A stretch of DNA of 27,705 bases. It comes from a virus. The translations under genes were made by a program, and so were the position numbers. The notes beneath the pieces are model-generated. The model was given only the letters and a program-made list of their open reading frames with translations, ran no database searches and was not told the DNA's origin. The stretch lies in the IMG/VR virus record IMGVR_UViG_3300027763_000193, positions 1 through 27,705 of that record; one strand, 5' to 3'. Positions 25,613-26,250 of this stretch are shown piece after piece (position 1 is the first letter of the stretch; each line of letters opens with the position of its first letter).

Positions 25613-25950
25613 GTAAAACCAGCAGTGTCGCAGAGGAAAAAACAACTGTGGAATGGACGGCAGAAGAAAAGAAAGATATTCCTTCCCGTTATGGATGCGA
25701 AATTCTTTTAGAAAAAGCAACACTACAACAATTAAAGGATCCATCATTTCCCCTTGATGCTCATATCGTAACTTATATTGTTAAAGGTGAGACTTATACC
25801 GACCTCTGCCGTGGAAGTAAAGTAAAAATCTTTGACTTATATTTTGATAAGTTTGGGCACGGTGCAGTTCAGAAGATTGCCTGGGGTTATGGTAAAGTAA
25901 GTCCAAAGATCTGGGGGTATAAAGCACCCGAAAAGAAAAAACGCAAGTAA
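25609..25950 (+). CDS. Unknown protein, GTG start overlapping upstream gene (113 aa)
   Basis: GTG at 25609 forms a GTGA overlap with the stop of the gene at 25013, and AGGTCG ahead gives a weak Shine-Dalgarno; an in-frame TTG at 25594 is the longer but less likely alternative. The product is basic at the end (P-E-K-K-K-R-K). It contains I-P-S-R-Y-G-C-E-I-L-L-E-K-A-T-L, D-A-H-I-V-T-Y-I-V-K-G-E-T-Y-T-D-L-C-R-G and V-K-I-F-D-L-Y-F-D-K-F-G-H-G. The latter two look like a small beta-rich nucleic-acid or protein-binding fold. I cannot name a family. Followed directly by an intrinsic terminator, so it is the last gene of its transcript. Confidence 0.7.
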   Translation: MSKTSSVAEEKTTVEWTAEEKKDIPSRYGCEILLEKATLQQLKDPSFPLDAHIVTYIVKGETYTDLCRGSKVKIFDLYFDKFGHGAVQKIAWGYGKVSPKIWGYKAPEKKKRK

Positions 25951-25951
25951 C

Positions 25952-25995
25952 AGTAGCAGCACGATACACTTAAAGTATCGGTTGCTACTTTTTTA
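25952..25995 (+). terminator. Intrinsic terminator after the 25609 gene
   Basis: AGTAGCA (25952-25958) with TGCTACT (25983-25989) and an inner GATAC/GTATC stem across an asymmetric bulge, followed by a T-run to 25994. Confidence 0.75.
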
Positions 25996-26010
25996 ATTTT
26001 ATGCTAATAT
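25982..26010 (+). promoter_or_regulatory. Extended -10 sigma70-type promoter of the riboswitch unit
   Basis: TTGCTA (25982-25987), 17-nt spacer, TAATAT (26005-26010) with TGC ahead (extended -10). It overlaps the terminator above: the -35 is in the hairpin arm and the T-run forms the spacer. Predicted start near 26017. Confidence 0.7.
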
Positions 26011-26017
26011 ATACAGT

Positions 26018-26063
26018 ACGTTGGCCGGAAAACCGGTGGAAGTACCAATAAGGGAAGCAACGC
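26018..26063 (+). promoter_or_regulatory. Glutamine-riboswitch-like RNA (glnA / Downstream-peptide type)
   Basis: Predicted at the very 5' end of the transcript from the promoter at 25982. P1: CGTTG (26019-26023) with CAACG (26058-26062). An inner hairpin CCGG-AAAA-CCGG (26025-26036) follows, then GGAAGTA (26038-26044) and GGGAAG (26052-26057). From memory, the glutamine-binding glnA and Downstream-peptide RNAs share a CGUU...GGAAGUA...GGAACGC layout, and the latter sit before short peptide genes in cyanobacteria and marine phages, as here. The closing pair is swapped (G-C for C-G), which keeps the helix. RBS AAAGGAG follows 18 nt downstream, so control is probably at translation initiation. 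Ligand not tested. Confidence 0.75.
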
Positions 26064-26094
26064 ACCAATACCCACAAAGTAAAGGAGCACCCTA

Positions 26095-26187
26095 ATGAAA
26101 AATAACTGGCAGCTTGTCTTAATCAAGCAACAAAAAGAAAAAGAACAACGCAAACATCAAGCAAAACTTGCAATGGCAATGCGATAA
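26095..26187 (+). CDS. 30-aa peptide downstream of the glutamine-riboswitch-like RNA
   Basis: M-K-N-N-W-Q-L-V-L-I-K-Q-Q-K-E-K, then E-Q-R-K-H-Q-A-K-L-A-M-A-M-R: 30 residues, highly basic (7 Lys, 2 Arg), with five Gln, probably one helix. Shine-Dalgarno AAAGGAG (26081-26087) lies 7 nt before the ATG. It is alone between a dedicated promoter and a terminator, and the riboswitch-like RNA precedes it, so the peptide is the sole product of a glutamine-controlled unit. In cyanobacteria related RNAs control small glutamine synthetase inactivating factors (IF17 type); the length and basic helical character here are compatible with a mini-inhibitor of a host enzyme, but no sequence match is visible to me. 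Function unknown. Confidence 0.7.
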   Translation: MKNNWQLVLIKQQKEKEQRKHQAKLAMAMR

Positions 26188-26193
26188 ATCATT

Positions 26194-26220
26194 AGAGACC
26201 TTGACAGGTCTCTTTTTTTT
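26194..26220 (+). terminator. Intrinsic terminator after the 30-aa peptide gene
   Basis: AGAGACCT (26194-26201) pairs with AGGTCTCT (26206-26213), loop TGAC, then seven T's to 26220. Confidence 0.88.
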
Positions 26221-26229
26221 ATGTAAAAT
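26201..26229 (+). promoter_or_regulatory. Sigma70-type promoter of the thyX operon, overlapping the terminator
   Basis: TTGACA (26201-26206) lies in the terminator loop and arm, then a 17-nt spacer including the T-run, then TAAAAT (26224-26229). Predicted start near 26236. Confidence 0.7.
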
Positions 26230-26250
26230 GGGATGAAAGAACTATATGAA

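Follow-up and report, generated by a model that had tools for sequence, protein, structure and literature searches.

A glutamine-I-type riboswitch that probably controls a small, predicted helical peptide in a T4-like cyanophage, with related peptides behind glutamine-II riboswitches in cyanobacterial hosts

Layout of the riboswitch-peptide cassette

The 27.7-kb IMG/VR record analysed here (IMGVR_UViG_3300027763_000193; the window, 27,705 nucleotides in total) is a piece of a T4-like cyanophage and encodes tail proteins, 2OG-Fe(II) oxygenase-like proteins, glutaredoxin and a ThyX-like protein. Between a 118-aa ORF upstream and a small ORF from 26244 downstream lies a separate unit, with the following features:

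25952..25994, + strand: hairpin resembling a terminator, with a T run, at the end of the upstream gene (AGTAGCA..CGATAC/GTATCG..TGCTACTTTTTT), found by direct reading; it sets the cassette apart from the 118-aa ORF
26000..26015, + strand: putative promoter, extended -10-like TATGCTAATATATACA; the start would fall just 5' of P1
26017..26066, + strand: glutamine-I-type (glnA) riboswitch aptamer, P1/P2/P3 three-way junction, RF01739 34.1 bits
26063..26094, + strand: leader from aptamer to start codon, with the Shine-Dalgarno (SD) sequence GGAG at 26084-26087; a possible GCxCC..GGxGC pairing covers the SD
26095..26187, + strand: 30-codon gene for a basic peptide, MKNNWQLVLIKQQKEKEQRKHQAKLAMAMR, predicted to form one helix, pN/pS 0.068
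26194..26220, + strand: intrinsic terminator that ends the cassette (AGAGACCT TGAC AGGTCTCT and T7), stem 26194-26213 followed by the T run

An earlier sequence-only reading had described a self-contained unit of promoter, riboswitch-like fold, ribosome binding site, 30-codon peptide and terminator. The ribosome binding site, the ORF and the terminator were all recovered at the positions given above. The start that it had set for the unit, 25982, had to be moved, as this position belongs to the terminator hairpin of the preceding gene, on its 3' side. That hairpin is the same in phage S-SRM01 and partly present in the related viral locus L098. The promoter stands in part: the -10-like element TATGCTAATAT at about 26000-26010 recurs in S-SRM01 and L098, but is absent from the list returned by a consensus promoter scan.

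Orthologous cassettes differ in their promoter, with the extended -10-like element in the window, S-SRM01 and L098 and a late-promoter-like ACTAAATA in others, the latter at the same distance to CGTT as the -10-like element. The timing of expression may therefore differ among relatives, and promoter exchange would represent a possible shift of expression time. In the window and L010-L181, either promoter type would have transcription begin with the first base of the aptamer.

In the terminator, the stem letters of relatives differ on both arms, while the loop TTGAC/TTGAT is kept. Several matches to greA, speF, MicX and similar Rfam families at 26116-26240 were sub-threshold and were discarded as terminator look-alikes. 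As a side observation, the terminator loop and 3' arm (26201-26229) hold a TTGACA located 17 nt 5' of TAAAAT, agreeing with the consensus at 11 of 12 positions, which we read as a promoter for the next gene; the TTGACA/TTGATC loop is retained in relatives despite the altered stem sequence. In one locus (L132:1263-1500), a deletion joins a window-type peptide to the next ORF and also turns the conserved CACCAAT spacer into CAAATTT.

Identity and covariation of the aptamer

Direct reading and the Rfam alignment confirmed the fold proposed earlier. P1 is formed by CGTTG (26019-26023) and CAACG (26058-26062), P2 by CCGG/CCGG around an AAAA loop, and P3 by CC/GG, with the core motifs GGAAGTA at 26038-26044 and GAAG at 26054-26057. 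In a cmscan search of 301 nt against 4227 Rfam families, the glutamine-I (glnA) model RF01739 matched 26017-26066 along its full length of 53 positions and scored 34.1 bits (E=6.7e-6; E=1.4e-7 when the single-family search covers the 27.7-kb record). The Rfam gathering cut-off for this family is 35 bits, which leaves the window copy 0.9 bit below it. The model scored over the cut-off, with 42.8-56.4 bits, at 12 of 14 related viral loci, and we therefore call the window aptamer a variant homologous to RF01739 rather than a curated member. The Downstream-peptide (glutamine-II) model RF01704 had no match at E<=10 in 25940-26240. Of the two identities that the sequence-only reading had proposed and offered for checking against Rfam, the glnA one is thus upheld, if just under the cut-off, and the Downstream-peptide one is ruled out; judged by its sequence, the window aptamer is of the glutamine-I and not of the Downstream-peptide class.

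IMG/VR was searched with a degenerate core pattern that left the helices and the closing base free, and this pattern occurred in at least 120 stretches. The matches listed together with the locus relatives gave 113 distinct viral aptamers. Among these, P2 formed at least three pairs with fixed linkers in 113/113 and P3 at least two pairs in 110/113, so that all three helices were formed in those 110, and covariation was seen in P1, P2 and P3. A control pattern with a scrambled core yielded 47 matches (35 distinct), none of which formed all three helices (0/35) and half of which had a mismatched closing pair.

The closing pair of P1 was C-G in 96 and G-C in 17 of the 113 aptamers and mismatched in none, which amounts to 113 paired closing positions compared with a mean of 84 when partners were shuffled among sequences. 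The sequence-only reading had remarked that the closing pair of the window is inverted and that this supports the helix; with inverted pairs in 17 of 113 aptamers and no mismatches, the remark was right and the inversion is a natural variant. The linker 'pair' beside P2 was A/C in 104, G/U in 4, A/U in 3 and G/C in 2 of the aptamers, and no other combination occurred. The window aptamer, to which that of L004 is identical, carries a G-C closing pair and a G/U linker in place of A/C, and these two features are probably the reason for its low score.

The same two features, along with 34.1 bits against 42.8-56.3 in most orthologues, might also be taken to mean that this RNA now recognises a different ligand or no longer binds one. 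We consider this improbable: the core motifs are all intact, an identical aptamer is present in L004, the linker is pairing-compatible throughout the 113 viral aptamers and 17 of these share the inverted closing pair. By homology to glutamine-I aptamers, the window RNA very likely senses glutamine.

With the glutamine-I riboswitches (RF01739; type 1, for example gifB of Synechocystis) the window copy shares the P1-P2-P3 architecture, the GGAAGUA and GAAG cores, the ACGC 3' end and the placement about 30 nt 5' of the start codon. It departs from the RF01739 norm in the inverted P1 closing pair, in the G-U linker instead of A/C and in its score 0.9 bit below the cut-off, and it controls a 30-aa helical peptide, whereas known glutamine-I riboswitches control glnA, amt, IF17 and the like. 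Glutamine-I aptamers have previously been reported in cyanophages such as S-CREM1 (PMC9964418). The Melnitz-type phages of OM43 and SAR11 also carry a glutamine-I aptamer, but there it is tied to ssrA/tmRNA and not to a peptide as in the window (PMC9004378).

A conserved peptide gene

The peptide ORF is conserved in relatives and under strong purifying selection. Across 15 distinct ORFs from 17 full-length relatives, pN/pS is 0.068, and 19 of the 24 variable columns fall at third codon positions; the low pN/pS identifies the 30-aa ORF as a real gene. These values also bear on whether the RNA itself, a short terminated transcript of about 200 nt resembling yfr6, is the product and the ORF incidental. 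The transcript is short and self-contained, and yfr6 was originally termed a non-coding RNA (PMC2864571), but such selection on the ORF, and the retention of the peptide as a second gene in other loci and in hosts (see below), make this explanation very improbable.

AlphaFold2 predicts the window peptide as one helix comprising residues 2-29 (mean pLDDT 91.5). It had no match in Pfam, including the YRG-motif domain DUF4278 (PF14105), in PHROGs or in NCBIfam, and a tblastn search against isolate phages was likewise without match, possibly owing to low-complexity masking. The window peptide does align with other phage peptides encoded behind the same aptamer, namely MALILIKQK.., ..FVQYLKNK.., MEKLNFLQLIKEQK.. 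and the helix half of the L041 protein. Further peptide families were noticed behind this aptamer (L007, L013, L032, L081, L281 and others), with sequences such as ..GNGTSGYVVKNGPNKGKVLGH.., ..LWTQYCR.., ..YRPFSWKRFC.. and ..PHYIRENPFYP; they are viral, apart from one peptide from a Pelagibacteraceae MAG.

Related peptides behind glutamine-II riboswitches in hosts

A search of 386 cyanobacterial genomes with a profile of the phage peptides gave matches in 20. The Rfam models were run only after this profile search, on the 20 matched host loci, and placed an RF01704 glutamine-II aptamer above cut-off directly upstream of the matched ORF in 14 of them. Three more host loci (L393, L405, L406) look similar by inspection. 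Typical host peptides are MNTLLLIKEKELKAQRLQDAQRCFAAHSEGIDYTSAHLSPAKLAS and MNNLLQIRDKIKRANRLHQAQLLATKNGE..., and the family is also represented by the MNTLLLIKEKELK type. Glutamine-II RNAs are known to be restricted to picocyanobacteria, and from this and from their size, 1.7-2.9 Mb in most cases, we infer that the matched host genomes belong to this group.

The reverse search, with a profile built from host peptides only, covered 10,422 viral ORFs and recovered the window peptide at E 4.7e-4, the MALILIKQK peptides at 1e-7 and the helix-YRG protein of L188 at 5e-8; the best match on control contigs was 0.24. The search for small-ORF homologues suggested by the sequence-only reading was thus productive in both directions. 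As the phage-to-host and host-to-phage searches agree, we conclude that one peptide family occurs under two glutamine aptamer classes, with type I used by most of these phages and type II by the hosts. The glutamine-II system of marine picocyanobacteria (RF01704; type 2) has the ligand class and the logic of aptamer, short spacer and small peptide in common with the window, and its peptides are homologous to the window peptide, but its aptamer core is unlike that of the window. In two viral loci (L178, L188), helix or helix-DUF4278 peptides were also observed behind glutamine-II-like aptamers with a GACGCA core, so that phages, too, seem able to exchange one aptamer class for the other.

The RNA class and its occurrence in cyanophages were already known (PMC9964418, PMC9602691, PMC9004378), as were host peptides behind Downstream-peptide RNAs (PMC2864571). 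We found no prior report in the open-access literature of phage-host peptide homology across the two aptamer classes. To our knowledge, glutamine riboswitches have been annotated in cyanophages without a demonstrated regulon. The regulated product described here belongs to a peptide family that the phages share with their hosts, in which another class of glutamine aptamer precedes it. That two unrelated sensors of a single ligand serve the one peptide family is independent evidence that the job of the peptide is tied to the glutamine level, and we regard this as the strongest evidence on its function.

The DUF4278 partner and comparison with IF7 and IF17

The sequence-only reading had spoken of a lone peptide, a description that does not extend to relatives, which have a DUF4278-like partner gene and tandem aptamers. 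A combined helix profile retrieved 39 distinct viral ORFs, 19 of them directly behind an aptamer and another 13 later in the riboswitch unit, mostly behind a DUF4278-like peptide (MSKVVYRGVEYD...YRGVKF...). In L128, L130 and L179, for example, the window-type peptide is the second gene after a riboswitch (RF01739 sub-threshold or at threshold) and a DUF4278-like peptide. The DUF4278-like neighbours in relatives reach 19.5 bits versus a cut-off of 25.3. L041 and phrog_545 each join a helix and a DUF4278 part in one protein, and phrog_545 occurs in 372 cyanophage records. The cyanophage proteins phrog_545 and phrog_5049 are DUF4278-like with or without a basic helix, and the N-terminal 25 residues of phrog_545 form a basic helix of the window-peptide kind. 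The window peptide consists of just the helix and itself stays below significance against PHROGs. In the open-access literature we found no earlier paper that describes the peptide/DUF4278 cassette as a riboswitch unit.

This architecture raises the question whether the phage peptide is a glutamine synthetase (GS) inactivating factor of the IF7/IF17 type, either as a homologue or as a functional equivalent acting at the same GS site. IF7 and IF17 (gifA and gifB) are likewise small, basic and nitrogen-regulated. Synechocystis IF17, whose mRNA carries a glutamine-I riboswitch, combines a DUF4278-like N-terminus with an IF7-like C-terminus (PMC6316151), which resembles the phage cassettes in which a DUF4278-like peptide is paired or fused with a basic helix (L041, L128, L130, L179, phrog_545). 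In several of the cyanobacteria covered, glutamine-I riboswitches moreover precede IF7-like proteins that are 44-53 aa long (NF052599, E about 1e-7), and cyanobacterial riboswitches of this type also control DUF4278 proteins. Homology to IF7 was nevertheless rejected statistically, though the residue pattern is suggestive by eye: aligning the profile of the helix family to that of IF7 (hhalign) scored 0.8, with 96 of 100 column shuffles equal or better, the NCBIfam model IF7A (NF052599) had no match to the window peptide, and inspection of the helix peptides showed no clear equivalents of the three IF7 arginines. Kinship of the peptide with the GS inhibitors IF7/IF17 was thus not supported and we do not class the peptide as an inactivating factor, a role we hold to be rather unlikely overall. 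Riboswitch-adjoining IF7-like proteins below the IF7A cut-off were seen in L205, L215, L248, L251, L258, L288, L291 and L302, genomes in which a full IF7/IF17 is also present.

Switching mechanism and proposed role

Taken as a phage version of a host family controlled by glutamine-II riboswitches, the peptide most likely has its place in the nitrogen-status response that its host relatives serve. We thus posit, as the likely explanation, that the window encodes a glutamine-I switch for a basic helical peptide of this host family. The mRNA of the T4-like cyanophage would begin at or beside the aptamer and encode the one 30-residue peptide; plentiful glutamine would fold the aptamer and thereby raise translation of the peptide. 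By binding a protein, the peptide would act as a small effector on nitrogen assimilation in the host; the first candidate target is glutamine synthetase or one of its regulators. The relation of the viral peptide to host peptides that likewise stand under a glutamine-sensing RNA suggests that these viruses tap into the nitrogen control of their hosts.

The leader offers a candidate element for such translational control, since GCxCC/GGxGC could cover the SD, and the spacer GCACCAATACC..AAAGTAAAGGAGCACC is nearly invariant in the 17 full-length relatives. A switch by SD sequestration was apparent in single-sequence minimum free energy folds, but was rejected because constrained ensembles computed for 104 leaders, with swapped tails as controls, showed no sign of it. 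When the aptamer fold was imposed, SD access changed by a mean of +0.008 over the 104 leaders, no better than with swapped tails, and in the window's own leader constrained folding changed it in the wrong direction. The ON direction is therefore taken from the literature, where glutamine raises expression via both studied riboswitch types, cyanobacterial gifB and Downstream-peptide (PMC6316151). A glutamine OFF switch, or an action on RNA stability or termination instead of translation, would agree with the absence of computed SD switching, and the window scan found no terminator between aptamer and ORF, which likewise counts in its favour. Given that glutamine activates in both studied types (PMC6316151) and that the peptide family is common to glutamine-II-controlled host peptides, we judge such a mechanism unlikely and favour the translational ON switch.

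The small size of the peptides, the presence of the two-part relative phrog_545 in hundreds of sequenced cyanophage records and the use of hosts such as Synechococcus WH7803 and WH8102 as laboratory strains make the phage handling of host nitrogen control directly testable.

Tandem aptamers with a nested ORF

Two tandem aptamers are found in the isolates S-SRM01, DSL-LC02, P-SSM2, S-SM2, S-CAM8 and SynMITS9220M01 and in many IMG/VR contigs. The second of them holds a complete ORF of about 50 codons (phrog_504) within its P2 loop, which starts in or beside the 5' P2 strand and runs to a stop codon within the aptamer's 3' half (GACGCAAAAGCCGACTGAAGGAACGC). Such nested-ORF aptamers lie at:

L001:3070-3325, L002:1798-2045, L411:950-1200, L412:2110-2400, L540, L541 and L419-L538

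S-SRM01 had been considered a broken aptamer with an inserted ORF, a reading dismissed in favour of tandem aptamers with a nested ORF on the basis of P-SSM2, DSL-LC02 and 92 IMG/VR ORFs.

A pattern for the junction matched at least 120 stretches, at least 98 of them with the 3' half at an ORF end, and gave 92 distinct ORFs among the matches listed. The outer four P2 positions are fully paired in 90 of these 92, with the combinations TCTA/TAGA (49), TCCC/GGGA (16), TCTC/GGGA (11), TCCT/AGGA (7) and GACT/AGTC (1) among the matches listed. The mean number of P2 pairs is 6.4 compared with 4.2 for shuffled partners, a comparison that ignores kinship among the sequences; on the same terms, P2 appears to covary across the 92 distinct ORFs. 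The nested phrog_504 has a pN/pS of 0.31 and homologues in 311 phage records, and a search of 377 host genomes returned one weak match and none that was convincing. With this ORF inside the P2 loop, a translating ribosome and the glutamine-bound aptamer would exclude each other. We found no paper on an ORF nested in a glutamine aptamer in the open-access literature, and the arrangement is apparently undescribed.

Among the matches listed, the gene following the nested-ORF aptamer encodes a DUF4278-like protein in 68 cases, a helix-DUF4278 protein (phrog_545) in 15 and a helix peptide in 2; in L455 and L494 it is the window's peptide that is encoded directly after the nested-ORF aptamer. Tentatively, and with the odds somewhat against so broad a reading, we propose that cyanophages at large share a glutamine-gated cassette of tandem aptamers with a DUF4278-like peptide and/or a basic-helix peptide of the family found behind host glutamine-II riboswitches, that the complete version also has the nested phrog_504, and that the peptides retune host nitrogen assimilation; the window with its one aptamer and one peptide would be a stripped-down form.

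Tandem, and up to triple, glutamine-I-type aptamers were also noticed in marine Alphaproteobacteria, SAR116 and SAR86 (L207, L219, L236, L250, L266 and others), where they precede apparent ammonium transporter and glutamine synthetase genes.
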